This document shows, one piece after another, positions 483-13,294 of a stretch of DNA of 25,624 bases (the stretch's first letter is position 1; each line of letters starts with the position of its first letter). The stretch spans positions 1 to 25,624 of the IMG/VR virus record IMGVR_UViG_3300009431_000722; one strand, written 5' to 3'. The notes under the pieces are model-generated. The model searched no databases and was not told where the DNA came from. It saw only the letters and a program-made list of their open reading frames with translations. The DNA is from a virus. The position numbers and the translations under genes were made by a program.

Positions 483-510
483 GGGGCTATTACTCCTCAA
501 CGATAGCCCC
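483..510 (+). terminator. Hairpin after capsid gene, possible terminator or processing site
   Basis: GGGGCTAT (483-490) pairs perfectly with ATAGCCCC (503-510) around a 12-base loop. It lies between the capsid stop and the next start codon at 523. There is no T-run after the stem, so it is not a classical intrinsic terminator; it may be weak, or protect the 3' end of the highly expressed capsid mRNA. The loop contains CTCCTC, which is anti-Shine-Dalgarno-like, and the next gene has no obvious ribosome binding site. Confidence 0.45.
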
Positions 511-522
511 CTGCTCAAAAAT

Positions 523-1140
523 ATGAAGGAAAGAAGAATATTAGGTATAGCATCCCATCCCGACGATTTAGAATTTGGTTGTTTTGGGACTTTTAAGAGA
601 TACCAGCAACAAGGTTATAAATTATATTATCTTATCCTTACTAATGGTGGTGATTCTGGAAATGGCGACATAAGAAAAGAAGAACAAAGCGAGGCAGCAG
701 ATTTATTAAAGGCAGAAGTTAAATTCCAAAATTTGCCTTCTGCATATTTGAATAATGATTCTGGCAGGGAAACCATTAAGGCAATAGAAAATTCAATAAA
801 TTTAGTGAAGCCACAAGTAATATTTACTCATTCTGATAACGACAGACATCAAGATCATAGATTGGTTAATAAAGCAACGACATCGGCTTGTAGATTTTTT
901 CAAGGTCAATTATATTTTTATGAAGGACATAGTTCTTTGAAATATTTTAAACCTAATCTTGTATATAGAATTGATGCTTTCTTTGAAGATAAACTAAGAA
1001 CAATGAATCTGTTTATAAGCCAAGCGACAAAGTTCTATATGAATCCAAAGGTAATTCGAGCCATAGCAACATTTCGTGCTGCTCAATTTGGTTTTTTGGG
1101 TAAGGCGGAAGCCTTTGAAGTAGGAGGAATAGTTAGATGA
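523..1140 (+). CDS. PIG-L/LmbE-family N-acetylglucosaminyl deacetylase
   Basis: A 205-residue zinc-dependent de-N-acetylase of the PIG-L (LmbE-like) family, which removes acetyl groups from GlcNAc-type sugars or sugar conjugates. The hallmark SHPDD motif is at residues 11-15 (H12, D14, D15) and the second motif HSDNDRHQDH at 103-112, giving the expected zinc ligands H12, D15 and H112. R51 and E54 fit the conserved R..E stretch after the GGDSG segment. Length is normal for the family. It opens the glycan cassette and overlaps the next gene by ATGA, so the two are translationally coupled. Its substrate is unknown; a nucleotide sugar or a glycan built by the neighbouring transferases is the natural guess. 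Confidence 0.85.
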   Translation: MKERRILGIASHPDDLEFGCFGTFKRYQQQGYKLYYLILTNGGDSGNGDIRKEEQSEAADLLKAEVKFQNLPSAYLNNDSGRETIKAIENSINLVKPQVIFTHSDNDRHQDHRLVNKATTSACRFFQGQLYFYEGHSSLKYFKPNLVYRIDAFFEDKLRTMNLFISQATKFYMNPKVIRAIATFRAAQFGFLGKAEAFEVGGIVR

Positions 1141-1853
1141 AGCATTTGGTTGTCGGATTTGGAGATGTTGGTAGGGGGCTTTATGAAATATTGCAAGAAA
1201 ATAAAAAAGAGGTTGTAACTATTGATAAAGATAACAACTTAGAGGGGAAATTTGATGTTCTGCATATTTGTTTTCCTTATTCAGCTCAATTTATAGATTA
1301 TATTCACGATTACATAGCAAAATATAATCCATCTTTAGTTATTATTCATTCTACTGTAGCACCTGGCACGACAGAAAACATTAGGTTTATTAAAACAGTT
1401 CATTCTCCCGTAAGGGGAAGATACCCCCGAATGGCAGGAGATATAAAATCTTATATTAAATATTTCGGAGGGAAACATTCCGAAGAGGCTTCAAATATTT
1501 TTCAAGAAATGGGCTTGAGGACAAAGTGTTTTAAATCTGCTAAAGTTACTGAATTAGGAAAATTATTGTCTAATATTCGCTGGGGATTGAATATTGCTTT
1601 CGCACAGGAACAAAAAAGAATGTGTGAATATTATGGCATAAGCTATGAAGAAGTTGTAAATGAATTTGAACATTCACGTAATGAAGGATTAAAAAAGATT
1701 AACCGTCAGAATGTTGTTATGCCAATATTATTTCCTGGATATATTGGTGGGCATTGTGTAATGCCTAACGTAAATATCCTTATGCAGGAATATCCCTCAA
1801 TGTTTTTAAGAGTGATAGTTGATAGCAACGAAAGATATGGACAAAAAATATAA
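1137..1853 (+). CDS. Compact UDP-sugar (UDP-glucose/GDP-mannose family) 6-dehydrogenase-like protein
   Basis: A 238-residue NAD(P)-dependent oxidoreductase. The N-terminus is a Rossmann fold with GFGDVG at 7-12 and an acidic end of strand 2 (D30, D32). STVAPGTTE (72-80) is the typical UDP-sugar dehydrogenase motif. The catalytic helix carries ELGKLLSN with K142 and N146, and GGHC at 214-217 corresponds to the active-site Cys motif (GGHCIPVDP in WecC/WbpA-type enzymes). Family members usually have over 400 residues; here the C-terminal sugar-nucleotide domain is missing and the protein ends about 20 residues after the Cys motif. Key catalytic residues are therefore present but the substrate lobe is absent. 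It could be a minimal enzyme, a truncated one, or one using a different substrate such as a sugar-like acid. It sits next to a 2-epimerase and an acetyltransferase of the same type of pathway. Confidence 0.7.
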
Positions 1854-2250
1854 ATCCTACGAACCTGTAAATATTTATCCTACCGCAGAAATTGGAGAAG
1901 GCGCTCATATTGGTATGTTTGCCGAGATAGGCGACTGTGTAAAAGTTGGTAAATATTGCAAGATTGGCGCAGGAGCATTTATTCCCAAAGGTGTAACGAT
2001 TGAAGATGAGGTTTTTATTGGTCCTAATGTTGTTTTTTGCAACGACAAGCATCCAAGGGCAATAGGTGGTTGGGTAGTAACTCCCATATTGGTTGAAAAG
2101 GGGGCGTCTATTGGGGCTAATGCGACTATTCTTCCAGGTGTGAGAATTGGAAGAAACGCAAGAATAGGTGCTGGTTCAGTAGTAACCAAAAGTATTCCAC
2201 AAGATGAATCTTGGGCGGGAAATCCTGCAATAAAAATAAATAAAATATGA
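1837..2250 (+). CDS. Hexapeptide-repeat N-acetyltransferase, WbpD/WlbB-like
   Basis: A 137-residue left-handed beta-helix acyltransferase. Hexapeptide repeats run through the whole chain ([48 protein letters not shown]). The segment [16 protein letters not shown] closely resembles the 'FTND.yPRA' signature of WbpD/WlbB, the acetyl-CoA-dependent enzymes that acetylate the 3-amino group of UDP-GlcNAc3NA; D70 and H72 fall in this catalytic segment. The ending AGNPAIKI is the usual 'GNPAr.i' close. I choose ATG 1837 rather than the in-frame TTG 1819 because it removes a non-family tail and leaves a 17-base overlap with the upstream gene. The stop overlaps the next ATG (ATGA). Confidence 0.8.
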
Positions 2251-3164
2251 GATATTTGACTATATGTGGCACTCGCCCAGAAATAATTAAACTTTGTGAT
2301 TGGGAAGATGAGATTATTTTTACGGGACAGCATTTTAGCTATGATATGGGGGAGAAATTTTTATTAAACAAGAAATCAACCAGGGTTCACTTTTTACCTA
2401 CAGATATAGACCATTCAAATATTGGTGTTCTTACCCAACAGCTTGAAGAGAAATTAGTTTTGTTAGGTAGTGATATAATTATAGTTCACGGGGATACCCG
2501 TTCAACATTAGCAGGTGCCAGGGCAGCGCATAAATTAAAGATGTGTCTTGCCCATATTGAATCAGGAGTTAGGTGTTTTCGTGATACTGTTGAAGAGACA
2601 TATAGAAAAGAAATAGACCAACTAGCGAACTACAATTTTTGTCCTGTGCCGAATGCAGTTGAACATCTTAAAAAGGAAGGCATAACCGAAGGCGTATATT
2701 TCACGGGAGATATTCTCTACGATAGATTTTTAGAAAACAGGGAATGTTGGGATTTTGTATTTGTTACTATTCATAGGCAAGAAAATATAGAAAATAAGGA
2801 TAAATTGAAACAGCTCATTGACAGTTTGAAAGATTATGGTTATATAATTTTTCCGCTTCATCCCCATACAAGGGAGTGCCTTGAGAAATTTAAAATAGAC
2901 CTGCCACGCAATGTGGTTGAGATGCCCCCCCTGGGTTACGAAGAAACCCTCCGTTACATCAAAGACGCAAAATTGATATTAACGGATTCTGGTGGTATCC
3001 AAAGAGAAGCCTACTGGTCGGGCACTCCCTGTAAAGTAGCACGTGAATCTACTGAGTGGGGTTATTATACGGGTGCTTTTGGCAATGGAAAAGCAGGAGA
3101 TAAAATAAAAGAAATTTTAGATAACAGGAAACCATATAGAAAGGTGGAAGGTGGTTATGCCTAA
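2247..3164 (+). CDS. wecB: UDP-N-acetylglucosamine 2-epimerase (WecB/WbpI-like, short form)
   Basis: A 305-residue GT-B-fold non-hydrolysing UDP-GlcNAc 2-epimerase, which converts UDP-GlcNAc (or a 2,3-diacetamido uronic acid form, as WbpI does) to the manno isomer. Active-site elements are all visible: GTRPEIIK with R10 and K15, HGDT with D83, HIESG with E105, E116/E117 and R120 in [15 protein letters not shown] with H176, and TDSGG..RE at 246-254 for UDP binding. It is about 60 residues shorter than typical WecB (roughly 370), mainly by loss of N-terminal domain segments between K15 and the FTGQH motif, so it is a compact but apparently intact enzyme. It follows the acetyltransferase by ATGA and overlaps the next gene by 8 bases. 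Confidence 0.88.
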
Positions 3165-4734
3165 GATTTCGTTGGTAATGCCGATTTATCGCACAGAACG
3201 ATTTTTAGAAAAAGCTATTGAAAGTATATTAGACCAAGATTATAAAGATTGGGAATTAATTTGCGTATCAGATGGTTATTCACGTAAAGCCTCATTGATA
3301 ATTAAAACCTTTAACGATCCACGTATTAAGCATATTAATATTTCTCACGGAGGGGCGTGTAAGGCAAGAAACGAAGGGGCAAAAGTAGCTGCGGGTAAAT
3401 ATATATCTTTTTTTTCTTCTGATTTTAGAGCAATTCCTGGAATGTTGAGAAAATGGGTTGATACTTTTCAGGAACATCCAGAAGCAGATTTTATTTATGG
3501 CGGATATATGTTTCCTAATAGGCAGATATATCCTTCAGAAGAGTTTGATCCAAGACAATTAGAAGTTTATAACTATATAGATGGTGGGTTTCCATTAAAA
3601 AAAGAAATTTGGGAAAAATACCCTTGGGATGAAAAGATAAAATCTCTCAACGATTGGGATTTTTGGTTGAGAATTGTTAAAGTGGGATATAGGGGATATT
3701 ATCTTGGTAATTATTATTCATATATTGCAGAACCGCCCAGAACAGGCGGATTATCACACGACAGTTCACAGAATTGGATAGAAAGGGTAAAGCAAATAAG
3801 AGAGAATAATAATATTCCACAGAGGTCGATTGTAGTTGCTTCATTGGGAGCTCCGTTCTTTGGGAAGAACTTGGCAAAGTTTTTAGATGCAGATTTTATG
3901 CCCATGCCTTCGTTTAAACCTCACACATACAAGATGGTTTACTTATTGGGTTTTTATCCTAATTCAGCAGATAAACACGCAAGGGTATTTCTTAACTGCC
4001 AGAAAGACTGCAAGAAGGTTATCCATTGGTTAGGTTCTGATATTGCAGGACTAAAGAAATTATCTTGGGAAAGTTTGAATGCTTTAGGAAACACATTAAA
4101 CCAAACTATGTCTATTATGTTTGCCGAATCAAAAGTTCAGCAGAGAGAATTGATTAAGATGGGAATAAAAACAGAAGTCCTGCCTCTATTAAGAGATATT
4201 AGTTCTTTTACAAGAAAACCAATGCCCAAGGATTTTGCTGTAGCTGTTTATTTACCTGGAGTAAATACGGATAACTACCATCCCATTCTTATTGAAAATA
4301 TTACTAAGAATATGCCTGATGTTCAATTTTATCTTTACGGAGATAGGGGAGTAAAGGAACAACAGGATTTTAAGAATGTTCATATTGTGGGTTGGAAAGA
4401 TATAAATGAAATAATCGACAAAACCTCAATACTCCTGCGATATACGGTTCACGATGGATTGCCTACAGCACCTATGGAATTTTTGATGTCGGGAAGATAT
4501 GTAGTCAGTAATGTTGATATGCCTTACATAGAAAAGATAGATAGCAAAAAAGACGAAGAAGGCGTAAGGAAAATTATTATTGAGAAGATAAGACAGATAA
4601 AGAAGAAGATAAGAAAAAAACAATATCCTACAGATGAGGCAGTTCAGTATTATAAAGACTATCTCAATCCTAATAAAATCAAAAAAAGACTTCATTCAAT
4701 AATCAATGGTGTTTATAGAAATAAATCCATTTGA
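3157..4734 (+). CDS. Two-domain glycosyltransferase: GT2 N-terminus fused to GT-B (GT4-like) C-terminus
   Basis: A 525-residue protein. Residues 1 to about 225 form a GT-A, family-2 domain: ISLVMPIYRTERFLEKAI start, WELICVSDG nucleotide site, GGACKARNEGAKVAAGKYISF core, and NDWDFWLR near its end. The usual DxD is replaced by SSDF, so metal binding may differ. Residues ~228-525 look like a GT-B domain, ending with VHDGLPTAPMEFLMSGRYVVS, which matches the 'DG.p....EAm..G.pVv.s' donor site of GT4 enzymes. The ATG at 3157 has GGAAGGTGG upstream and is preferred over GTG 3151. The C-terminus is very lysine-rich. Two transferase domains in one chain suggest two consecutive sugar additions. The acceptor is unknown. 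Confidence 0.78.
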   Translation: MPKISLVMPIYRTERFLEKAIESILDQDYKDWELICVSDGYSRKASLIIKTFNDPRIKHINISHGGACKARNEGAKVAAGKYISFFSSDFRAIPGMLRKWVDTFQEHPEADFIYGGYMFPNRQIYPSEEFDPRQLEVYNYIDGGFPLKKEIWEKYPWDEKIKSLNDWDFWLRIVKVGYRGYYLGNYYSYIAEPPRTGGLSHDSSQNWIERVKQIRENNNIPQRSIVVASLGAPFFGKNLAKFLDADFMPMPSFKPHTYKMVYLLGFYPNSADKHARVFLNCQKDCKKVIHWLGSDIAGLKKLSWESLNALGNTLNQTMSIMFAESKVQQRELIKMGIKTEVLPLLRDISSFTRKPMPKDFAVAVYLPGVNTDNYHPILIENITKNMPDVQFYLYGDRGVKEQQDFKNVHIVGWKDINEIIDKTSILLRYTVHDGLPTAPMEFLMSGRYVVSNVDMPYIEKIDSKKDEEGVRKIIIEKIRQIKKKIRKKQYPTDEAVQYYKDYLNPNKIKKRLHSIINGVYRNKSI

Positions 4735-4906
4735 TATACATTTTGGCGATCCCCAATATGAAACTAATTGGAAATCTATTATTGAATTAGATTTTCCCTA
4801 GCAAATAAAGATATTCTTTCACGAAGGATTAAGGCGATGGGATATTATGGGCATACAGGAAAGATATAATTATTATGGCATCCCAGAACATCTTATTAAA
4901 TTGTGA
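4706..4906 (+). pseudogene. Small ORF interrupted by one in-frame TAG (or read through), unknown function
   Basis: From ATG 4706 this frame gives 31 residues (MVFIEINPFDIHFGDP...), then TAG at 4799-4801, then 33 more sense codons without another stop, rich in aromatic residues (FFHEGLRRWDIMGIQERYNYYGIPEHL), to TGA at 4904-4906. That TGA overlaps the GTG start of the next gene (GTGA), just like the other junctions in the cassette, and the ATG overlaps the previous gene. Without the TAG it would be a ~65-residue protein filling an otherwise empty gap. It is either a gene freshly killed by a point mutation, a sequencing error, or a read-through product (TAG is followed by CAA ATA). I recognise no family. 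Confidence 0.5.
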
Positions 4907-6192
4907 AGATTTTATTCGTTTATCCCAATATAACCAGGCAAACAACTCCGCAAGTGGGGATAGCTTCATTAATTTCCGTTATTTTAAAAAAACACGATGT
5001 AAGACTTTTTGATTTAACTATTATAAAATCAGGTGGGGAAAAATCCGCCTTTTTAGAGAATCTTGAAACATTCCTTCCTGATTTAGTATTGGTTTCCTGC
5101 CGAAGCAACGAATGGGGATATGTAAAAAAAATCGTTGAATGGTCTTATCCTATACCCGTAATTCTTGGAGGAATACACCCCACTATAAACACAGAAGAAG
5201 TTTTAGAACACGCTAAGATGGTAATAAGGGGTGAAAGTGAAGAAGCTCTTGAGGAATTGCTTGACAGGTTGGAAAGAGGAAGAGATATAGGCAGGATAAG
5301 AAATCTTTGGTTTAAAAGAAGGGGTAGGATTGTCAGGAATGATGTAAGACCTCTTATACAGAATTTAGACGAGCTTCCTTTTCCTGAATGGAAAGCTTTT
5401 CCCAAAGACCATTTTTATAATTCCTACATTAAGTCGTTATTTAAAGATATTAGATGCGTAGGGACATTTGAAACGACTAGGGGATGCCCTTATTTATGCT
5501 CATATTGTTGTAATGAATATTTACAAAAGATTTACAAGGGAAAAGGAACATATCACCGTAAAAAATCTCCTCAACGGGTTGTTAGTGAAATTAGGAGCTT
5601 TCGTAGCCTGTATCCTGATTGCAACTTTTTATATTTTGTTGATGATACTTTTATGGTTGAGGGAAATTGGCTCGAAGAGTTTAAGGATATTCACGACAAA
5701 ACGCCATTTGTTTTTATGACACGACCAGAAATGGTTACAAGAGAAAAAATGAGACTGGTTGCCGAGGCGGGTGGTAAGGCAGTTAGCATTGGGGTGGAAA
5801 GTGGAAATGAAAAATTCAGAAAAGAAATTCTTAACAGAAAGATGTCTCAGGAACAGATTATTGAAGCGTTTAAAATCGCAAAAGATTTTGGTCTTATGGT
5901 GTATTCATTCAACATGGTGGGTTTGCCCTATGAAACCAGAGAAGATATACTCGCTACAATAGAATTAAATAAAAAACTTAAACCAGATATAGCACAGTTT
6001 ACCATATTTTTTCCTTTTAAGGGAACAAAGCTCTTTGATATATGCACGAAAGAGGGTTATCTTGCTAGAGAATATCCTGAACTTTTTAACTATTACAATA
6101 AGTCCTTTTTAAATCATCCGAATTTTAAAGAAGGGGAACTTGAAAAATGGGCAGAAAAAGCCGAAAGAATATTCAAAAAGAAAAAGAAATAA
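4903..6192 (+). CDS. B12-binding-type radical SAM protein
   Basis: A 429-residue protein with an N-terminal cobalamin-binding-like Rossmann domain (residues ~1-140: ILFVYPN, GIASLISVL-type helix, LVLVSCRS, VILGGIHPT), then a linker with the usual 'ld.LPfPeW' segment (147-153), then a radical SAM domain. The cluster motif CPYLCSYC gives C195, C199 and C202, with the typical TRG just before it. FVDDTF, SIGVESGNE and MVGLPYETREDI follow in the order expected of the TIM barrel. The classical DxHxxG cobalamin His is not evident, so B12 binding is unproven. The start is GTG 4903, overlapping the upstream frame. Relatives modify sugars, lipids, peptides and P-methylated compounds; here a sugar or lipid carrier is likely from context. 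Confidence 0.85.
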   Translation: MKILFVYPNITRQTTPQVGIASLISVILKKHDVRLFDLTIIKSGGEKSAFLENLETFLPDLVLVSCRSNEWGYVKKIVEWSYPIPVILGGIHPTINTEEVLEHAKMVIRGESEEALEELLDRLERGRDIGRIRNLWFKRRGRIVRNDVRPLIQNLDELPFPEWKAFPKDHFYNSYIKSLFKDIRCVGTFETTRGCPYLCSYCCNEYLQKIYKGKGTYHRKKSPQRVVSEIRSFRSLYPDCNFLYFVDDTFMVEGNWLEEFKDIHDKTPFVFMTRPEMVTREKMRLVAEAGGKAVSIGVESGNEKFRKEILNRKMSQEQIIEAFKIAKDFGLMVYSFNMVGLPYETREDILATIELNKKLKPDIAQFTIFFPFKGTKLFDICTKEGYLAREYPELFNYYNKSFLNHPNFKEGELEKWAEKAERIFKKKKK

Positions 6193-6860
6193 AAATCAGT
6201 TATGTTTTACCTACGTATAACAGAGTGGAATATTTGGGTGAATGTATTGCAACTTTATTAGAGCAGGATTTTAATTCCGAAGAATTTGAAATAATCATAG
6301 TCGATGATGGTTCTACTGACACTACAGAAGAATTGATGTGTTGGTTGTGTAGTCAACATAAAAATCTACACTATTACAAAAAGAAACACGCAGGAGTGGA
6401 AAGTGCTAGAAATTTTGGCAATAAGCTAGCTAGAGCAGAGATTATAGGTGTTTGTGATTCTGATGATTTATACCACCAAGACAGAACAAAAATAACATAC
6501 AATTATTTTAAACAATATCCCAATGTAGATATTTTGACTGGTTCATACATAGAGATAAATCATAGGGGATTACCTCTAAAAGTATATAAGGCAGAACCAA
6601 TAAAGAAAAGAATGTTTTTTAAGGGTAGAATGACTTTTTTCTGCCACGATAATTGTGCTTATAAGAAAGAAAAGATTTTAAAGACGCCATACCGTAAAAA
6701 TGGCAATCAGACAGATGATTGGAAGTTAATTCATGATTGGCTTAAAGCTAATTATAAGTTTGGCTACACAAAAAAAGAACTTTGTAAAGTCAGAACCCTG
6801 CGTAATGGCATAATGGGTGCAAGACGGGAAAGGATGGGAATAAGGCTTTCTTATGTCTAA
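6147..6860 (+). CDS. Family 2 glycosyltransferase
   Basis: A 237-residue GT-A glycosyltransferase. The domain starts near residue 18 with ISYVLPTYNRVEYLGECI and continues with EIIIVDDGSTDTT (nucleotide site), AGVESARNFGNKLA and VCDSDD, the metal-binding DxD. The C-terminal third has QTDDWKLIHDW, where an acidic catalytic base is expected. The ATG at 6147 overlaps the radical SAM gene by 46 bases; AAGGGG lies about ten bases upstream of it. The first ~15 residues are lysine-rich and lie before the conserved domain, so translation from a downstream non-ATG codon cannot be excluded. It probably transfers one nucleotide-activated sugar within the cassette's glycan. Confidence 0.85.
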   Translation: MGRKSRKNIQKEKEIKISYVLPTYNRVEYLGECIATLLEQDFNSEEFEIIIVDDGSTDTTEELMCWLCSQHKNLHYYKKKHAGVESARNFGNKLARAEIIGVCDSDDLYHQDRTKITYNYFKQYPNVDILTGSYIEINHRGLPLKVYKAEPIKKRMFFKGRMTFFCHDNCAYKKEKILKTPYRKNGNQTDDWKLIHDWLKANYKFGYTKKELCKVRTLRNGIMGARRERMGIRLSYV

Positions 6861-7947
6861 TCAATTTAAGATTCTTTTTATGCCTACAGCTAATGCGGGG
6901 GTAACCTGGCAGAGAATGTTTTTATTCTTTCAGCAATTTAAGAAAGATAAAACTCTTTCGCCTGCAATGGATAGCTTTGATCCTAACAGAAGTATGCCTT
7001 ACGAGTGGCAATTTGATAAATTCAGAAGCACAATGCTTGAACTTCAGATAGAAAAGCTTGTGGGTATGGCTGATGTGGTAGTTATTGGGTATGTAATTTG
7101 CGATTATGGCATTGCTCTTATTAAAGGATTGAAAATGCTCTTTCCTAAAAAACCTATTCTTATGGAGATAGATGACTACTGTTTTCAATTAAATGATTAT
7201 TCTCCAGCTTTTAATGTTTATAGAGCAGGTAAAGAAGCCTGTGATGGACTGGAAGAACAATTAAAAATTTCAGATGGTGTGATAGTTTCAACTCCATATT
7301 TGAAAGATTTATACGCTGACCACAACAAAAATATTAAAGTTATGAGGAATGGAGTTGATTTTAATATTTGGAATTTCCCCATAAAAGAAAAAAAGGGGAA
7401 GAAAATAAAAATAGGTTGGGCTGGTGCATATACACATTCTGAAGATGTAAGATATATTGAAAAAATTGTTTACAGGATACTTGACAAATATAAAAATGTG
7501 GAATTTTACTTTATGGGAGGAGCACCTGATTTTTTTATTAAAAAACATCCCCAAATAAAATGTCATAATGCCTGGTCTAACCCCTACAATTACCCAGAGG
7601 CTTTATACAAAAAGAATTTTGACATAGGATTAGCCCCCTTGCTTGACAATAATTTTAATAGGGCAAAGAGCAATTTAAGATGGCTTGAATATTCGGCTTT
7701 AAAAATACCTACAATAGCAAGTAATGTGGAGGATTTTAAGAGGACTATTGAAGAAGATGATACTGGTTATTTATGTTCAGAACCAGAAGAATGGTTTTAT
7801 AAATTATGTATGCTTATTGAAAACGGTGAAAAAAGGAAACAAATAGGTGAAAATGCCTATAGAGAGGTAAAGAAAAATTTTAATATGGAAATTTTAGCAA
7901 AAGAATATAGCGATTATCTCAAGGGAGTTTACGATGACTTTAAGTGA
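6853..7947 (+). CDS. GT-B (GT4-like) glycosyltransferase
   Basis: A 364-residue glycosyltransferase. The N-terminal half has KILFMPTANAGVTWQRM, an acceptor-site-like segment, and a DVVVIGYVICDYG strand; the C-terminal half has IGWAGAYTHSED, YFMGGAP, and the donor-binding region DIGLAPLLDNNFNRAKSNLR followed by EYSALKIPTIAS. These are the usual order and spacing for GT4 enzymes. It overlaps the upstream GT2 gene by 8 bases and the downstream adaptor gene by 14 bases, so the glycan cassette is physically stitched into the virion operon on this side with no promoter or terminator between. Sugar and acceptor cannot be deduced. Confidence 0.82.
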   Translation: MSNQFKILFMPTANAGVTWQRMFLFFQQFKKDKTLSPAMDSFDPNRSMPYEWQFDKFRSTMLELQIEKLVGMADVVVIGYVICDYGIALIKGLKMLFPKKPILMEIDDYCFQLNDYSPAFNVYRAGKEACDGLEEQLKISDGVIVSTPYLKDLYADHNKNIKVMRNGVDFNIWNFPIKEKKGKKIKIGWAGAYTHSEDVRYIEKIVYRILDKYKNVEFYFMGGAPDFFIKKHPQIKCHNAWSNPYNYPEALYKKNFDIGLAPLLDNNFNRAKSNLRWLEYSALKIPTIASNVEDFKRTIEEDDTGYLCSEPEEWFYKLCMLIENGEKRKQIGENAYREVKKNFNMEILAKEYSDYLKGVYDDFK

Positions 7948-8623
7948 AATTAGAACAAGAATTAGACTGATGATGCCAGAGGCAGATACCACGGTTATAA
8001 ATAATCAGGATTTAGATATTTTGATTAACGATGCTGTAATGGATATAACTTCAAAGACGGAGTGTATCCAAAATTATGCAGACCAAACTGTAACTGCTGA
8101 TACTCAGGAATATTCTAAGCCAACAGACGCTATTAGCATTACTGCTGTTTATTATGGAGGCTCTGGCAACTGGGAGAAACTACCCAGGGTTACTATGGAT
8201 TTTCTTTCTAATGAGGTAGATGAAGATTGGTTTGATGATACTGGAACAATCTATGCTTATTTTATCAGAAGGGATAAAATAGGTCTTTATCAAATACCCA
8301 CATCTAGCGAAGCGGGAACTGATTATTTAAGGGTGTATTATGTGGAACAACCTGATACTTTATCTGACAATGGAGATGTTCCATTTAATAGTTTGAATCA
8401 TTTAAAATCTTATCACGAATTGATTATTCTCTATGTGATTTATCATCTTAAGCAAATAGTTGGTAAATGGCAACAATCGGATTATATAGAGAAAAATTAC
8501 CTCGCCAAGACAGTTAATATGAAGGTTGAACTTAACAGGATGGAAGATTTTCAACAAGTTATCCGACCCTACCATAAGGGAGCCGGAGGAAGTTCACTCA
8601 AGCAGAATCCCTTAGACCAATAA
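7934..8623 (+). CDS. Phage head-tail adaptor-like protein
   Basis: A 229-residue protein starting MTLSEIRTRIRLMM and continuing with DLDILINDAVMDITSKT, the helical opening typical of podovirus adaptor proteins of the SU10 type, which form a ring below the portal. The middle is beta-rich (YYGGSGNWEKLPRV, YAYFIRRDKIGLYQIPT, LRVYYVEQPD) and the end is again helical with HLKSYHELIILYVIYHLKQ. AAGGGAG precedes the ATG by seven bases. The capsid gene lies upstream across the glycan cassette and the nozzle-like gene follows, the order expected for these virions. Assignment rests on recalled sequence character and position, not on a catalytic motif. Confidence 0.65.
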   Translation: MTLSEIRTRIRLMMPEADTTVINNQDLDILINDAVMDITSKTECIQNYADQTVTADTQEYSKPTDAISITAVYYGGSGNWEKLPRVTMDFLSNEVDEDWFDDTGTIYAYFIRRDKIGLYQIPTSSEAGTDYLRVYYVEQPDTLSDNGDVPFNSLNHLKSYHELIILYVIYHLKQIVGKWQQSDYIEKNYLAKTVNMKVELNRMEDFQQVIRPYHKGAGGSSLKQNPLDQ

Positions 8624-8647: not shown

Positions 8648-11608
8648 ATGTATGATACTTTTCAAGAAGAAGATGTTGCTTTAGCTATAGATGTATTTAA
8701 AGGACTAGATAAAAAAACACCTTCAGAGAATCTACCTATAGGCGTATCTGATATATGCCAGAATTGGCGATTTGATGAAAAGGGTAATTTATCTCGTAGA
8801 CCTGTCTATGCAAAATATAATGCAACGTCGTTAGGTGCTAATCCTATTAAATATTTAGATAGGATTTACATAGGAACAAATAAATATCTTTTAGCTGTCT
8901 ATGATACCAATTTAAAAGTGGGGAATGATGCAGCGGGAACATTCTCAAATCTAAAAACAGATTTAACTGCTGACCTCGATTATACAGGAGTAACTTTTAA
9001 AGATTTTCATTATCTGGCAAATGGAACTGACAATATTATCAGGACAGATGGTGTTGATATAAAAGATGCGGGTTGTGAAGCCCCCGATACAGCTCCTTCC
9101 GCAGCCGAAGGTGTAGCAGGCACTATGGCAGCAGGCACATATAAATACAAAGTTACCTATGAATTTGATGGTTACCAAGAAGGAAATAGCCAATCAGGGG
9201 ATTGTTCTGTAACAATAGGTGCAAGCAAAACCGTAGATTTAACTGATATTCCTGTTGCTAATTTTGATTCTTATACGAAATTATTACTTCCACTTGAAGG
9301 GGCTGATGCAGCTACTACCACTACTGATGTTGGAGAATTTCACGCTGCGACATTCAATGGCACAGCACAGATAGATACAGCACAGAAGAAATTTGGTTCT
9401 TCTTCGCTATTACTTGATGGAAATAGTGATTATTTGACTTTTCCTGACCATGCTGATTGGAGTTTTGGAACAGGTGATTTCACCATAGATTTTTGGGCAA
9501 GATTTAATGATTTGACCAATAGACAGGCATTTGTTTGTCAAGACGATACTACAAATTATTGGCTTTTAGAGAAATATACCAGTGCCAATGGTAACAAATT
9601 AAGAATGATTTTTATTAATGAAAGCGGGGTTACTAAGGGCGATTATGTAATGACAAATAATTGGTCTGTTTCTGCGGATACCTGGTATCACCTTGCTTTT
9701 GTAAGAAATGGCTCAAATGCTTATATACTTATTGATGGCACGCCCCAAACCCTTACTGAAACTACTGCCTTTGGTTCTAATGATGTAGGAAATATAGCCG
9801 CTTCTTTATATGTCGGTTACTCTCCTGGATTAACGACATATCTTGATGGTTGGATAGATGAAGTGAGGATTTCAAAAGGCATAGCAAGATGGACTGCCAA
9901 TTTTACTGCGCCTACCACGCCCCATGCAGATGCTTTTGATATAACAGGAAGAAAGATTTATAGAACAGAAGCGGATGGCACTACCTATTACTATTTAACT
10001 GAGTTGGCAGACAACACCACAACTGTATATAACGACGATGACGTAGATGCCAATTTAGATACTACTATAACCGTTCCTACTGATAATGGGGCTCCTCCTG
10101 TTACAAAATATCTCAGGTTACATAAAGATAGGGTATTTTCGGCAGGGAATAGCACCAATAAATCAAGGGTATATTATTCCAAAATTTCAGGTATTATTGC
10201 TTATCCCGAAATATACCCAGCCAATAATTACATTCCTGTTTCACCAGATGATGGCGACGAAATAACTGGAATAGCTGTTGACCCTACAGGATATTTGTGT
10301 GTATTCAAAAAGAATACCATAAGGAAAATATTTACTGATGGAGACCCTGATATATGGTCAGTATCCGAACCATTCAGTAAATATGGTTGTGTATCTCCTT
10401 ATTCAATTAAAGAAACACCTGCTGGAATATTATATCTTGCTATTGATGGTTGGCGACTTTTTGACGGACAAAATTCAAGACTATTATCAAATAGCGATAG
10501 AGTAAACAAAATTACCACAGATGAAATAATGCTTTCTAGGCATGATAAATGCAAGGGACATTATCACGACCACATCTGTTATCTTGCATATACAGATAGA
10601 GCTTCCAATGTTACTTATAACAATCGGGTTCTTTTGTATGACACCCTGACAGACAATTTTTCAATCGAACATAAAAAGATAGATTCATTTTGCACCCTTT
10701 CTGGTTCTGATGATTGGGGGGAGATTTATTATGGAGATAGCCAGAATGGATTTGTTTATAAAGAAGAAACTACTATAAGTGGTGAAGTATTCAGTAAATT
10801 ATCCGAATTTAGACCAAGTGGAACACTCTCTAATTTGTTTGTTTTTGGAACTGAAGAAAGCCCTACTTTAGAATTGGGTGGTCGTTATACGCTAGACCGT
10901 ATGACAGGAAGTTCTTTAGATGATTGGACTGGTTCTGCTTTGGATGATTTTCCTTCTGCCTATGCTCCTTCTGGAACTTATATATCACCAGTATTACAAC
11001 TTAATGCGAGTAATCTTTACTATATGTATTGGAATGAAACATTGGGTGATTATGGAGATGCAACTGTAGCTCTAAGGACATCTACTACTTCGGCAGGTTT
11101 ATCTGGAACTTGGTCATCTGAATATAGTAATGCTTTAGGTTCAGATATTACAGGTGAAACAGCCCAAGATTGGCTTCAATTTAGAATTACCCTATCTTCA
11201 TTTGATCCAAATAAAGATAGCACTCCGCAACTTTATGTAAAAAATGATTACTTATTCAAGTTAACTTATGGAGTAACGGGCACGGAAGTAGAAACAGCGA
11301 TAGATTGCGATTGGAGAAGTGGCTACCTGCAATTTACTCCACAGGCAACGCCTGTTAGGTTGCGTAGATTTGAAATAGACCACGATGGTTCGGATGGATT
11401 ATTAAGCTGTATTTGGGAATTGGATAATGAAAGTGTTTCAGGAATATTTACTGTGAATTTAGCTAATGACACCAAAACTTATAAATCACCCTTTCCTACA
11501 ACTGCTTTTGGTAAAAGGGGAAGATTTAGACTTAAATATAATGATATAGAAGATTTAACAATTAAAGCTGTGAATTTGCTATTAAGCCCACAGCCAGAAA
11601 GATATTAA
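8648..11608 (+). CDS. Large tail protein, probable nozzle, with inserted LamG/concanavalin-like domain
   Basis: A 986-residue virion protein. The N-terminus (PIGVSDICQNWRFDEKGNLSRRP) resembles podovirus tail nozzle or 'stabilisation' proteins, which open with a remark of gene-product topology and then beta-propeller-like repeats. Residues ~205-428 form a LamG/pentraxin jelly roll: FGSSSLLLDGNSDYLTFP, FTIDFWARF, WYHLAFVRNG, LDGWIDEVRISKG, a fold that commonly binds sugars. After ~430 the nozzle-like part resumes with LRLHKDRVFSAGNSTNKSRV and a VDPTGYLCVFKKNTIR strand. The LamG domain therefore looks inserted in a loop. It probably contacts the host glycan. RBS AAGGA lies upstream; the next gene starts 12 bases after the stop. 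Confidence 0.7.
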   Translation: MYDTFQEEDVALAIDVFKGLDKKTPSENLPIGVSDICQNWRFDEKGNLSRRPVYAKYNATSLGANPIKYLDRIYIGTNKYLLAVYDTNLKVGNDAAGTFSNLKTDLTADLDYTGVTFKDFHYLANGTDNIIRTDGVDIKDAGCEAPDTAPSAAEGVAGTMAAGTYKYKVTYEFDGYQEGNSQSGDCSVTIGASKTVDLTDIPVANFDSYTKLLLPLEGADAATTTTDVGEFHAATFNGTAQIDTAQKKFGSSSLLLDGNSDYLTFPDHADWSFGTGDFTIDFWARFNDLTNRQAFVCQDDTTNYWLLEKYTSANGNKLRMIFINESGVTKGDYVMTNNWSVSADTWYHLAFVRNGSNAYILIDGTPQTLTETTAFGSNDVGNIAASLYVGYSPGLTTYLDGWIDEVRISKGIARWTANFTAPTTPHADAFDITGRKIYRTEADGTTYYYLTELADNTTTVYNDDDVDANLDTTITVPTDNGAPPVTKYLRLHKDRVFSAGNSTNKSRVYYSKISGIIAYPEIYPANNYIPVSPDDGDEITGIAVDPTGYLCVFKKNTIRKIFTDGDPDIWSVSEPFSKYGCVSPYSIKETPAGILYLAIDGWRLFDGQNSRLLSNSDRVNKITTDEIMLSRHDKCKGHYHDHICYLAYTDRASNVTYNNRVLLYDTLTDNFSIEHKKIDSFCTLSGSDDWGEIYYGDSQNGFVYKEETTISGEVFSKLSEFRPSGTLSNLFVFGTEESPTLELGGRYTLDRMTGSSLDDWTGSALDDFPSAYAPSGTYISPVLQLNASNLYYMYWNETLGDYGDATVALRTSTTSAGLSGTWSSEYSNALGSDITGETAQDWLQFRITLSSFDPNKDSTPQLYVKNDYLFKLTYGVTGTEVETAIDCDWRSGYLQFTPQATPVRLRRFEIDHDGSDGLLSCIWELDNESVSGIFTVNLANDTKTYKSPFPTTAFGKRGRFRLKYNDIEDLTIKAVNLLLSPQPERY

Positions 11609-11620
11609 AGGAGGAAACAA

Positions 11621-12115
11621 ATGTCATTTGATAAAACCTTACCTGCTAATGGTAGAGATTGTGCGTCAGTAGATAACGATATAAGGGATAACTTTGAAGG
11701 AATACAAAAAGGAGACCATTGGACTGCGGACACAGAGCCATCTTATAAAGAGGAGGGTTGTCCCTGGTATGATTCTACCAACGACATAATGAAGTTCTAT
11801 GATGGCACGACTTGGCAACATTGGAGATTTGGAACTTGGACTTCTAAAACAATAGGAACAACTTATCAAGCAGATACAGATGGTTTTGTAACAGCGTGGT
11901 CTGTTTCATCGAGAGGAGATATTGATATACAAGGCATTACAGATTCAAATGCTACACCCACGACTGTAAGAATAAGACATTATGCAAATTATGAAGGCAG
12001 TGGCACAGGACACGCTTGTATTATGTTTCCTGTGAAAAAAGACGACTATTATAAAGCGACTGTTAGTGGAGATGTATCCACTGGAACTATGTTCTGGCTT
12101 CCATTAGGAGCATAA
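11621..12115 (+). CDS. Probable tail/fibre-associated protein
   Basis: A 164-residue protein directly behind the nozzle-like gene, with the strong RBS AAAGGAGG. The first ~70 residues (LPANGRDCASVDNDIRDNFEGI, PWYDSTNDIMKFYDGTTWQHW) resemble the short 'dN.iR.N...i' plus 'YDstN..lk.ydGttW' segment found in phage fibre and appendage proteins. The rest (residues ~75-164) is beta-rich with a SSRGDIDIQGITDSN repeat-like stretch and no membrane segment. I cannot name the family. A role as a small tail or fibre subunit is inferred from position and composition. Confidence 0.55.
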   Translation: MSFDKTLPANGRDCASVDNDIRDNFEGIQKGDHWTADTEPSYKEEGCPWYDSTNDIMKFYDGTTWQHWRFGTWTSKTIGTTYQADTDGFVTAWSVSSRGDIDIQGITDSNATPTTVRIRHYANYEGSGTGHACIMFPVKKDDYYKATVSGDVSTGTMFWLPLGA

Positions 12116-12337
12116 ATGGGTAGAAAGCAATTCCAGAGATTACCAAATATTTCAGAACAGCATAATGAGGTTCATAGAAAAACCTATGATTTACCTTATT
12201 TGTTAAGGAAGGTTTCTACCTATCCTACGGATGATGAAATGGATATGGATGAGATGTTGTTATGTATGAATAGCAGCACTTCGGCAATTTGTATAAAAGT
12301 AAATGATTCTGCAATATTGAGTGCGGGATTGACATAG
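12116..12337 (+). CDS. Hypothetical protein, 73 residues
   Basis: Starts immediately after the stop of the previous gene (TAAATG junction) with GGAG six bases upstream, and ends in TAG abutting the next ATG. It has a basic N-terminus (GRKQFQRLPNISEQHNEVHRK) and an acidic methionine-rich middle (DDEMDMDEMLL). The end is a short Ser/Ile-rich segment that may form strands. No family recognised. The exact gene-to-gene abutment on both sides and the RBS support that it is real. Confidence 0.6.
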   Translation: MGRKQFQRLPNISEQHNEVHRKTYDLPYLLRKVSTYPTDDEMDMDEMLLCMNSSTSAICIKVNDSAILSAGLT

Positions 12338-12547
12338 ATGCAAGAAGATAAATGTTTAAAATGTGGAAGATGTTGTTATATGGGATTCTATGATAGAAGG
12401 GGATTTAAAACAAAAACAACTATAAAATGTCCATATTTGACAGAGGATAATTTATGTAACGTTTATAATAATCGCCCTAAATGGTGTATAACAGCAGAAG
12501 AAATGAAAAAGAAGAGTTTGTTACTCGATGGATGCGGGTATAAATAA
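12338..12547 (+). CDS. YkgJ-like cysteine-cluster protein, 69 residues
   Basis: A small Cys-rich protein with C6, C9, C12, C13, C31, C40, C50 and C66. The pattern C..C..CC near the N-terminus, CPYL.....C..Y..RP..C in the middle, matches the YkgJ (Fe/Zn cluster-binding) family in short form; Y43 and the RP at 46-47 sit in the typical 'C.vY..RP..C' segment. Such proteins bind a metal or iron-sulphur cluster; their function is poorly known. It lies among virion genes, between two structural genes, and starts directly after the previous stop. It could be a virion component or a regulator expressed with them. Confidence 0.75.
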   Translation: MQEDKCLKCGRCCYMGFYDRRGFKTKTTIKCPYLTEDNLCNVYNNRPKWCITAEEMKKKSLLLDGCGYK

Positions 12548-12559
12548 GGAGGTTTTACT

Positions 12560-13294
12560 ATGGGTTTATGGGGAGCATTGGGAGCTATTGGTTCGTTAGC
12601 TACTGGAGCAGGAAGTTTAATGGGTGCTTTTAGTGGCGGTGGTAGCGGAGGCTTAGAAGATGCTGACAGAGATTTATTAAGGGCTATGTGGGGTGAACAA
12701 CTAGCCCAACAGAGAATGGGAACTGAGTGGATGCAATATGTTTCTCCTTACCTACAGGAAACATTGGGACAACTTCAGCCATTAATAGCACAGAGACTTG
12801 AACAACCAGGATTACCACCTGAATTAGAAAATCAAGTATGGCAGTTAGCTAGACAGAGATTAGCTAGAGGCTATGGTGATTTAGAAAATCAACTAGGAAC
12901 TTTAGCAGCAAGTAGGGGCATGCTTACTTCTGGACCTGTTGGACAGAGTTGGCTTCAAAATGTAGGTTTAGCCAAGGCACAAGGTGAAACAGGTTTAGCA
13001 ACAGAACGATCCCTAGCCAATTACAATGCTATGCAACAGGCAATAGGTGAAGCACAAAGTTTATTGGGTGTAATGCCTACTTCGGGAGGAGCTATGCCGA
13101 GTATGGGCTTAATGTATAATCAACCTTCCCAACCAATGGATTTAGCTGGCTTTGGAAGTTTATTTGCAAGAGGGTTAGGAGCTTGGGGAACACAACCTGG
13201 TATGGGTGGTGGTGGTTTTAGCCAATATGGTAATTATTATGGTAGTAATACTCCCCAGGGAGTTCAAGATATGGGAACATGGAGCCAATTTTAG
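12560..13294 (+). CDS. Probable internal virion / DNA ejection protein
   Basis: A 244-residue protein with the strong RBS AAGGAGG. The N-terminus is a glycine-zipper-like hydrophobic helix (GLWGALGAIGSLATGAGSLMG), followed by a long Gln/Leu-rich helical region (residues ~35-165) with AASRGMLTSGP in its middle, and a Gly/Gln/Tyr-rich tail. This architecture, a membrane-active N-terminus plus a helical body, is seen in podovirus ejection proteins that leave the head with the DNA. No specific family motif was recognised. It stands in front of two more probable internal proteins. Confidence 0.55.
   Translation: MGLWGALGAIGSLATGAGSLMGAFSGGGSGGLEDADRDLLRAMWGEQLAQQRMGTEWMQYVSPYLQETLGQLQPLIAQRLEQPGLPPELENQVWQLARQRLARGYGDLENQLGTLAASRGMLTSGPVGQSWLQNVGLAKAQGETGLATERSLANYNAMQQAIGEAQSLLGVMPTSGGAMPSMGLMYNQPSQPMDLAGFGSLFARGLGAWGTQPGMGGGGFSQYGNYYGSNTPQGVQDMGTWSQF

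Follow-up and report, generated by a model that had tools for sequence, protein, structure and literature searches.

The 25,624-nucleotide viral sequence analysed here (IMG/VR record IMGVR_UViG_3300009431_000722, positions 1 to 25,624; hereafter, the window) raises the question of what a block of sugar-modifying enzymes does among the head genes of a phage, and which molecule receives the sugar. Analysis of ORFs and Pfam matches confirmed that eight genes for such enzymes, as described in an initial annotation, are located between the genes for the major capsid protein (MCP) and an SU10-type head-tail adaptor (Table 1); every enzyme named there is supported by a Pfam match, and the 14-base overlap of the last cassette gene with the adaptor gene is equally real. 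The description of the cassette as eight overlapping ORFs is accurate for six of the seven internal junctions, using mechanically assigned starts, but the fifth and sixth genes are 168 bases apart. Misassembly of a single contig can be discounted: contig 3300013117_000152 (38,184 b) matches the window at 99.93% identity over 18,620 b, without any difference inside the cassette. The GC content of the cassette (0.32–0.38) resembles that of the flanks. The short interrupted frame between genes 5 and 6 may be a decayed gene; a phmmer search, in which the stop was entered as X, found no homologue among the ORFs of the loci collected by that stage, and recoding of its in-frame TAG was dropped as an explanation, given this result and the fact that the MCP gene itself ends in TAG. 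The LamG protein, which forms the downstream boundary of the module, is 39–51% identical in segments to its counterparts in two distant phages. A variable patch is present in its gene; a diversity-generating element was considered and rejected, as there is no second copy in the window or in contig G003 and many of the changes are silent.

Table 1. Features of the cassette and its surroundings, numbered from the first base of the window
Feature	Position	Strand	Support
MCP, C-terminal part, 154 residues	1..465	+	PHROG 1357 major head protein, E 1e-22
Stem of 9 bp, loop of 10 bases, just 3' of the MCP stop	483..510	+	Fold -14.3 kcal/mol
PIG-L-type zinc N-deacetylase	523..1140	+	PF02585, E 2.3e-24
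Mini UDP-sugar dehydrogenase, WecC/WbpA-like	1137..1853	+	PF00984 central domain, 7.7e-08
Left-handed beta-helix (hexapeptide) acetyltransferase	1819..2250	+	PF00132, 1.2e-24
Non-hydrolysing UDP-HexNAc 2-epimerase	2247..3164	+	PF02350, 4.5e-53
Two-domain glycosyltransferase (GT2/GT-A + GT1-type), 527 aa, cassette signature gene	3151..4734	+	PF00535 1.4e-21; PF13692 1.8e-05 (below Pfam's cut-off)
Short frame, TAG at 4799-4801, in frame on to TGA at 4904-4906	4706..4906	+	Sequence
B12-binding-domain radical SAM enzyme	4903..6192	+	PF02310 2.4e-10; PF04055 1.9e-26
GT2 glycosyltransferase	6147..6860	+	PF00535 3.1e-28; counterparts in two distant phages
GT1-type glycosyltransferase, usually the last cassette gene	6853..7947	+	PF13524 1.5e-07; PHROG 7162 1e-42
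SU10-type head-tail adaptor	7934..8623	+	PF24175, E 2.5e-18
Virion protein, 986 aa, LamG/ConA-like lectin domain	8648..11608	+	PF13385 1.5e-18; PHROG virion/baseplate matches

The sugar-synthesis enzymes of the window have recognizable structural neighbors in the PDB. The PIG-L protein, with what we take to be HPDD and HxxDH-like motifs, is closest to a GlcNAc-malate deacetylase (6p2t, 6.5e-13), and the radical SAM enzyme to putative apramycin biosynthetic oxidoreductase 4 (6fd2, 9.2e-12). The nearest entry for the hexapeptide acetyltransferase, for which an alternative ATG start at 1837 is possible, is the N-acetyltransferase 7s3u (2.3e-28), and 3mqg also matches (9.6e-22). The epimerase best matches a UDP-2,3-diacetamido-2,3-dideoxyglucuronic acid 2-epimerase (8sxv, 1.3e-41), with the UDP-GlcNAc 2-epimerase 4neq close behind (5.8e-40), and its residues D83, E105, E117 and H176 are invariant in all eight sequences compared. 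The dehydrogenase, nearest to the ManNAcA dehydrogenase 4r16 (8e-05), consists of only 238 amino acids and has no Pfam match to the C-terminal UDP-binding domain; cysteine 207 of its GGHC motif and Lys142 are invariant in seven of seven aligned sequences. These conserved residues of the two enzymes are presumed to be catalytic, and we count them in favor of a glycosylation module. The two-domain transferase was modeled with a pLDDT of 90.8, and Foldseek places its N-terminal domain nearest to SpsA (1qg8) and WrtF, which says no more than "GT-A like"; its metal motif is SSD in the window and DxD in the other five aligned sequences. In Pseudomonas and Bordetella the WbpA-B-E-D-I (Wlb) pathway leads to UDP-ManNAc3NAcA, and of this set of five the window has only dehydrogenase-, acetyltransferase- and epimerase-like members, neither an oxidase nor an aminotransferase having been found in its cassette. 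Because of these gaps, the short dehydrogenase and the SSD motif, the pathway of the window is possibly reduced.

The initial annotation proposed searching related phage contigs for the same gene order, and the order does recur. A scan of viral contigs with the two-domain transferase returned 50 loci in 41 clusters at 80% identity, four of which contain query sequences. The MCP gene is upstream on the same strand in 38 of the 41 clusters (34 of 37 without the four query-holding ones), and the last GT1 gene is downstream in 30, with at most 3.4 kb of sequence left downstream in ten of the remaining 11; 21 have an adaptor match with an E value no higher than 1e-5, which in three of them is weaker than 1e-10. 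The three glycosyltransferases recur across loci, whereas the complement of sugar-synthesis genes that they enclose differs, one clade having WbpB/WbpD-like enzymes; core gene order and position are kept even where the flanking structural proteins have diverged to ~30% identity. In two phages with MCPs ~36% identical to that of the window, in which the last GT1 has counterparts of 40–42% identity, the block occupies the same interval over 10.3 and 12.3 kb; the largest MCP-adaptor distance, 14.6 kb in locus L075, depends on a weak adaptor match (2.9e-06). In locus L107 the cassette precedes the terminase and the MCP lies downstream, and in L108 and L111 no MCP is in view. In a control selected by MCP and restricted to loci retaining 4 kb or more of downstream sequence, glycosyltransferases follow the MCP in all 20 loci with MCP identity of at least 40%, seven of which are contigs not returned by the transferase scan. 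Distant MCP relatives were without the cassette (0 of 5 in this control, 0 of 9 in an initial MCP scan). The MCP also matched seven fecal phage records at 27–33% identity; none of the four retrieved from among these has a cassette gene after the MCP, as judged by profiles. An adaptor-based scan of viral contigs returned the near-identical contig alone, and tblastn against phage records gave no matches for the adaptor or the mini dehydrogenase and 70 matched records for the two-domain transferase, none over 80% of its length. A terminase scan of bacterial genomes produced one distant Planctomycetota contig, which breaks off ~1.8 kb past the portal gene, neither capsid gene nor cassette being in view.

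The chemistry encoded between the core transferases differs markedly among relatives. Four clusters of the 41 (L073, L075, L077 and L101) contain all five WbpA-B-E-D-I families by local profiles; DegT and Gfo/Idh are Pfam-confirmed in each, and the dehydrogenase match is weak, falling below the Pfam cut-off in L075 and L101. The resemblance to the Wlb pathway is seen in L075, which combines a WbpB match (3o9z, 1.2e-33), an acetyltransferase (3mqg, 1.5e-46), a DegT aminotransferase, a mini dehydrogenase and an Epimerase_2 protein, although its aminotransferase has ArnB rather than WbpE as the best PDB match and its dehydrogenase is short. The complete 40,140-b genome of Caudoviricetes sp. ctQWt234 (MW202801.1, Manatee Spring) also has sugar genes after the annotated MCP, namely an Fe-S oxidoreductase, two glycosyltransferases, PhyH, a methyltransferase and a NodB-like gene, and local profiles matched its MCP, SPASM radical SAM, GT2 and last GT1 proteins; unlike the window, it has no two-domain transferase by profile, and its last transferase is only 25.7% identical to that of the window.

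On the basis of these data, we consider it probable that the cassette is a module of the capsid operon and serves to glycosylate the virion, with the head as the likeliest site and the MCP as the putative acceptor. The core transferases diverge in step with the MCP about as the portal does (MCP versus two-domain transferase, rho 0.69, n=30; versus last GT1, 0.63, n=25; versus portal, 0.65, n=19; all three at 0.002, the lowest value that the permutation test could give). This co-divergence does not single out the MCP, because the last GT1 tracks the adaptor as well (rho 0.65, n=18). The full MCP, 350 residues in the near-identical contig (L003:9413-10462), was modeled with an HK97-type capsid fold (mean pLDDT 76; best PDB match the N4 capsid 9e99, E 3e-14). 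The window MCP extends four residues beyond the conserved motif and has no Ser/Thr-rich C-terminal tail; such a tail, of 23–49 residues, is present in 10 of 32 cassette MCPs, all from one sister clade, and since it reflects a single monophyletic event, its association with cassette type carries no independent weight. The Ser+Thr fraction is 0.184 in these 32 MCPs versus 0.166 in the 20 with which they were compared (p 0.003, ignoring relatedness), an excess so small that we dropped it as strong evidence.

The proposal that the cassette is expressed with the capsid genes agrees with the layout, which is the whole of its support: 203 of 209 cassette ORFs of at least 100 aa in the relatives are on the plus strand, and 127 of 172 neighboring pairs overlap or abut, a count inflated by taking ORFs from the first start codon. 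A strong RNA hairpin lies 3' of the MCP gene in 27 of 35 loci; the mean MFE of the 65 nt after the MCP in 35 relatives is -21.3, compared with -9.4 after 170 other genes (p 6.6e-9 against 84 other genes that precede a gap of at least 40 nt). The hairpin of the window itself folds no better than shuffles (z -0.6) and is notable only through the set of relatives, and nothing resembling an intrinsic terminator was flagged in the window between the MCP gene and the cassette. The element is probably an mRNA 3' end or an attenuator, which suggests lower expression of the cassette relative to the MCP.

Under the glycosylation scenario, the phage enzymes would take up a host nucleotide sugar, for example UDP-GlcNAc, as starting material. 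In the window, this sugar would be epimerised, oxidised, deacetylated and acylated by the 2-epimerase, mini dehydrogenase, PIG-L protein and hexapeptide acetyltransferase, with an additional radical SAM step. The three glycosyltransferases, one of them with two domains, might then act in the cytoplasm, adding a short oligosaccharide to a virion protein during assembly; the likeliest acceptor would be the MCP, encoded just upstream. The gene content, the fixed position in many phages, the co-divergence with the MCP and the absence of the tested membrane families are observed; we infer the order of reactions, the identity of the sugar, the acceptor and the benefit, be it shielding or binding in the environment.

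That absence bears on an unlikely alternative, the alteration of host surface glycans, which the initial annotation also raised. In this reading, the cassette would feed altered sugars and transferases into the lipid-linked pathway of the host during infection, so as to mask receptors or exclude superinfection, and its place in the late operon would be a matter of timing only. The implied sugars are typical of O-antigens and capsules, both PDB entries matched best in L075 being named lipopolysaccharide enzymes, and two GT2-domain proteins of the window match GtrB-like PHROGs (7e-06 and 2e-17); such sugar enzymes are able to act peripherally on lipid intermediates. Against this, the families of initiating transferases, flippase and GtrA (PF02397, PF01943, PF04138, PF00953) were each found in 0 of 20 records, with matches in 9, 13, 7 and 12 of 14 positive-control genomes, respectively; the search comprised these four membrane families, and as many records are fragments, the absence of lipid-carrier genes is not final. 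Hydropathy is at most 1.24 in seven of the eight cassette proteins of the window, and the one strongly hydrophobic stretch is in the last GT1 (1.91); across relatives, such stretches occur in 18 of 224 cassette ORFs, two of them transferases. A Gtr serotype-conversion cassette has a GtrA flippase together with membrane-bound GtrB/GtrC; here, PF04138 is missing from the 20 records and no membrane-anchored transferase was recognised by hydropathy in the window cassette. Late expression with capsid genes would also leave little time for a surface change, and the place beside the MCP is kept while gene content varies. Virion glycosylation is the better supported of the two putative functions.

Glycosylation of a virion part other than the capsid shell, such as the adaptor, the LamG protein or fibers, is in our estimation rather improbable. 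It would fit the last GT1 gene, which abuts the adaptor gene and co-diverges with it, the lectin-like protein encoded next, and the tail-tube glycosylation reported for mycobacteriophages (PMC12619734, citing Freeman 2023), but the core transferases co-diverge about equally with the MCP, and the block begins after the MCP in the one complete deposited relative, too. We see very little chance that the transferases decorate hypermodified DNA bases as a restriction shield: phage glycosyltransferases that glucosylate DNA are reported in PMC12619734, but this cassette sits among head genes, and the thymidylate synthase family (PF00303), the one base-modifying family covered, is absent from all 20 records, several of them fragments, compared with 9 of 14 controls. 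Equally hard to credit is a host-acquired sugar island carried as neutral cargo; the strong variation between the core transferases and the other position in L107 are what such cargo would show, whereas core order and position persist next to highly diverged structural proteins, the cassette co-diverges with the MCP, and it is retained in every closer MCP relative with enough sequence.

For the preferred reading, virion glycosylation, the closest known case would be that of the actinobacteriophages. Corndog is reported to have glycosyltransferases and an O-methyltransferase in the virion operon (gp35-gp38, portal to protease), its capsid being poorly seen by MS (PMC4351075); mycobacteriophage capsid and tail-tube C-termini are reported to carry glycans (Freeman 2023, cited in PMC12619734 and PMC11256854); and Maravista, a Che8 relative, is reported to have its transferases near the genome 3' end and not in the structural arm (PMC11256854). 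The earlier statement that sugar genes are normally outside structural operons thus agrees with Maravista but not with Corndog or the present group. The mycobacteriophages, including Corndog and Che8, resemble the window phage in having glycosyltransferase genes proposed or shown to modify capsid and tail tube, and Corndog also in their location within or near the structural operon; the window group differs by the added nucleotide-sugar synthesis genes, by the MCP-to-adaptor position, and in consisting of uncultured SU10-portal/adaptor phages in which a glycan is predicted from the genes. Chloroviruses and mimivirus are large eukaryotic viruses, with capsid and genes unrelated to those of the window phage. 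A works-like comparison can be drawn with them, in that the virus supplies nucleotide-sugar enzymes and transferases, and the major capsid protein of PBCV-1 is glycosylated (PMC4691112). In the published literature searched, with most subscription papers lying outside, the available text has no description of an MCP-to-adaptor sugar cassette, and the phage capsid glycosylation documented there concerns few phages and a handful of transferases.

A more general proposition, which we advance tentatively and at somewhat less than even confidence, is that in a broad group of uncultured phages a capsid-operon module makes a dedicated, often non-host sugar that coats the phage's own capsid, with exchangeable chemistry between three conserved transferases, of the diacetamido-uronic acid type in one clade, as a bacterial-virus counterpart of the autonomous capsid glycosylation of giant algal viruses. 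If the module works in this way, a virus-made sugar coat of the head would be the norm in a large group of environmental phages and would be passed on along with the capsid genes; the reasons for coating a head, such as shielding, surface adsorption or stability, would become testable, and the cassettes would be a source of compact enzymes for glycan synthesis, including an unusually short sugar dehydrogenase. Many records of the group are ~40 kb in length, and the module accounts for as much as about one quarter of a record.

The genes of the block and their order, as proposed in the initial annotation, were borne out by ORF calls and by Pfam and PHROG matches (see table); its eight ORFs, described there as overlapping, do so at six of the seven internal junctions, with genes 5 and 6, the two-domain glycosyltransferase and the radical SAM enzyme, spaced 168 b apart. 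No homologue was found of the short frame lying across this gap. A second contig is 99.93% identical to the 25,624-b virus record over 18,620 b, contains the same block with 0 differences, and reaches further upstream through terminase, an SU10-type portal and the full major capsid protein (MCP), which is modeled with an HK97 fold and the N4 capsid as nearest structure. Twelve of the 13 differences between the contigs, a mix of silent and non-silent changes, fall within 45 bases of a LamG-domain virion protein gene, a patch that looks like recombination with another allele.

Features of the window, in order along the sequence
Feature	Position	Strand	Basis or remark
MCP (end)		+	ORF, Pfam/PHROG
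RNA hairpin	483-510		directly 3' of MCP
PIG-L deacetylase		+	ORF, Pfam/PHROG
Mini UDP-sugar dehydrogenase		+	ORF, Pfam/PHROG
Hexapeptide acetyltransferase		+	ORF, Pfam/PHROG
UDP-HexNAc 2-epimerase		+	ORF, Pfam/PHROG
Two-domain glycosyltransferase	3151-4734	+	ORF, Pfam/PHROG
Short frame	4706-4906	+	one internal TAG; final TGA overlaps radical SAM GTG start
B12-type radical SAM enzyme		+	ORF, Pfam/PHROG
GT2		+	ORF, Pfam/PHROG
GT1 (last)	6853-7947	+	ORF, Pfam/PHROG
SU10-type adaptor		+	ORF, Pfam/PHROG
Patch in LamG-domain gene	9845-9889		12 differences
CxxCxxCC metal-binding protein	12338-12547		69 aa, within structural region
Protein with C1q/BclA-like C-terminal domain	17118-18707		structural region; possible fibre tip

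In two distant phages, whose identity to the window's phage is 36% in MCP, 33% in portal, 29% in adaptor and 62% in terminase, the interval between MCP and adaptor again holds a sugar cassette, 10.3 kb long in one and 12.3 kb in the other. The two-domain transferase (34%), GT2 (up to 37%) and last GT1 (40–42%) are common to all three; the remaining enzymes differ (SPASM radical SAM, methyltransferases, a weak polysaccharide-deacetylase match), and PIG-L plus a formyltransferase occur in one of the two. At 12033-13258 of the related locus L006, within the cassette, a formyltransferase adjoins the PIG-L deacetylase, which suggests that a sugar is deacetylated and then N-formylated.

Six two-domain transferases, every one from such a cassette locus, were aligned and used for a scan that gave 50 loci, or 41 clusters at 80% protein identity. 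In related phage contigs, where the initial annotation had proposed to seek the same gene order, the cassette mostly keeps its place: an MCP lies upstream on the same strand in 38 of the 41 clusters (34 of 37 after removal of four query clusters), the call being a partial match in L092 and the product of a six-frame search in L090, L102 and L104. The last GT1 lies downstream in 30 of the 41 clusters and an adaptor match (E ≤1e-5) in 21, 18 of them at ≤1e-10, with an MCP-to-adaptor distance of 2.7–14.6 kb (median 7.7, n = 21; the 14.6 value comes from a weak adaptor match); L020 is included in these positional counts. The exceptions are L107, where the cassette precedes terminase and the MCP is downstream, L108, otherwise similar to it, and L111, the MCP being out of view in the latter two; since the L107 cassette is upstream of terminase, the module can sit elsewhere. 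The complete deposited genome MW202801.1 has a comparable block 3' of the MCP that lacks the two-domain transferase. In a further phage group (L047-L052), a 576–582 aa protein with a last-GT1-like match is encoded shortly after the MCP, and a two-domain transferase match is absent.

As a capsid-based control, MCP alignments served as queries in three further scans. The first gave 28 loci, 13 with at least 4 kb downstream; among these 13, glycosyltransferases were found in the 4 loci at MCP identity of at least 35% (one being the window's own phage and two the distant phages) and in none of the 9 at 33% or less. The other two, with MCP groups from cassette phages, gave 47 loci (24 and 23), of which 46 were scored (L089, mapped earlier, was omitted) and 21 were set aside for having less than 4 kb of downstream sequence. 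In the remaining 25, glycosyltransferases follow the MCP in 20 of 20 loci with MCP identity of at least 40% and in 0 of 5 at 29% or less; 13 of the 20 are on contigs already within the two-domain-transferase set, and seven are new, all positive (L121, L142, L150, L151, L152, L157, L159). No cassette gene was matched by profile after the MCP in four fecal phage records, whose MCPs are distant. The module thus goes with certain capsid lineages rather than with the capsid family as a whole.

The recurrent core consists of the two-domain transferase, GT2 and last GT1, and the genes between them vary. In one clade (L069, L071-L073, L075, L077, L079, L082, L086, L101) the two-domain transferase has a C-terminal methyltransferase domain by Pfam in all nine complete copies (that of L086 is cut), and the cassette includes an aminotransferase, usually with a Gfo/Idh oxidoreductase, acetyltransferase and 2-epimerase. 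All four occur in 7 of the 41 clusters according to local profiles, and all four plus the mini dehydrogenase in 4; Pfam confirms aminotransferase and oxidoreductase in L069, L073, L075, L077 and L101. In L075, WbpB (1.2e-33) and the lipopolysaccharide acetyltransferase 3mqg (1.5e-46) come out as best PDB matches, as would partly suit the WbpA-B-E-D-I pathway to UDP-ManNAc3NAcA, but ArnB is nearest to its aminotransferase. The window's set is smaller and includes PIG-L and a radical SAM enzyme, the latter nearest to an apramycin-biosynthesis oxidoreductase; its epimerase is nearest to UDP-diacetamido-glucuronic acid 2-epimerase (1.3e-41), with 4neq, named UDP-GlcNAc 2-epimerase, nearly as close (5.8e-40) and 1f6d far weaker (1.2e-18). 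Residues presumed to be catalytic are invariant in the epimerase (D83, E105, E117, H176; 8 of 8 sequences) and the dehydrogenase (Cys207, Lys142; 7 of 7). Counting against activity are the SSD motif of the window's GT-A domain, versus DxD in the other five aligned sequences, and the lack of a Pfam match to a UDP-binding domain in its dehydrogenase. Inside the L088 cassette, MCP and two-domain transferase are separated by a series of ORFs, most of them short; seven contain a strongly hydrophobic stretch.

Cassette ORFs, called mechanically with smaller overlapping ones removed, lie closely packed on one strand, with 203 of 209 on the plus strand and 127 of 172 neighbors overlapping or abutting. 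The 65 nt after the MCP, examined in 35 loci, contain a hairpin with a mean MFE of -21.3 (z -3.6; 27 of 35 at ≤-15), versus -9.4 (z -0.4; 15 of 170) after 170 other genes, control segments that often enter coding sequence; under a stricter control with a gap of at least 40 nt, 27 MCPs average -21.1 versus -10.5 for 84 other genes (p 6.6e-9). The structure is kept across loci despite differing sequences, and a single locus of the 35 has a U-tract 3' of the last stem. Such a hairpin could serve as a device giving much MCP and little enzyme.

In the parts of the literature covered, glycosyltransferases in the virion operon (PMC4351075) and capsid glycosylation (PMC12619734) are known from actinobacteriophages, with the transferases located elsewhere in the genome in Maravista (PMC11256854); our searches of this material found no description of the present arrangement. 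New points are its scale, the pairing with nucleotide-sugar synthesis, a fixed location between MCP and adaptor, and its distribution over a group of uncultured phages.

Two initiating-transferase families, a flippase and GtrA were found in 0 of 20 records, as was thymidylate synthase, with positive controls in both cases and many of the records being fragments. Transferases that appear to lack a lipid carrier and would be made with the capsid fit glycosylation of a cytoplasmic virion protein, most likely the MCP. Co-divergence with the MCP is comparable for the two-domain transferase (rho 0.69), GT1 (0.63), portal (0.65) and terminase (0.57); GT1 co-diverges with the adaptor too (rho 0.65). 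The window's MCP lacks the C-terminal tail of 23–49 residues (S/T fraction 0.24–0.45) present in 10 of 32 cassette MCPs, which form one monophyletic clade (support 0.992) and whose tail calls to mind the glycans reported at the C-termini of mycobacteriophage capsids (cited in PMC12619734).
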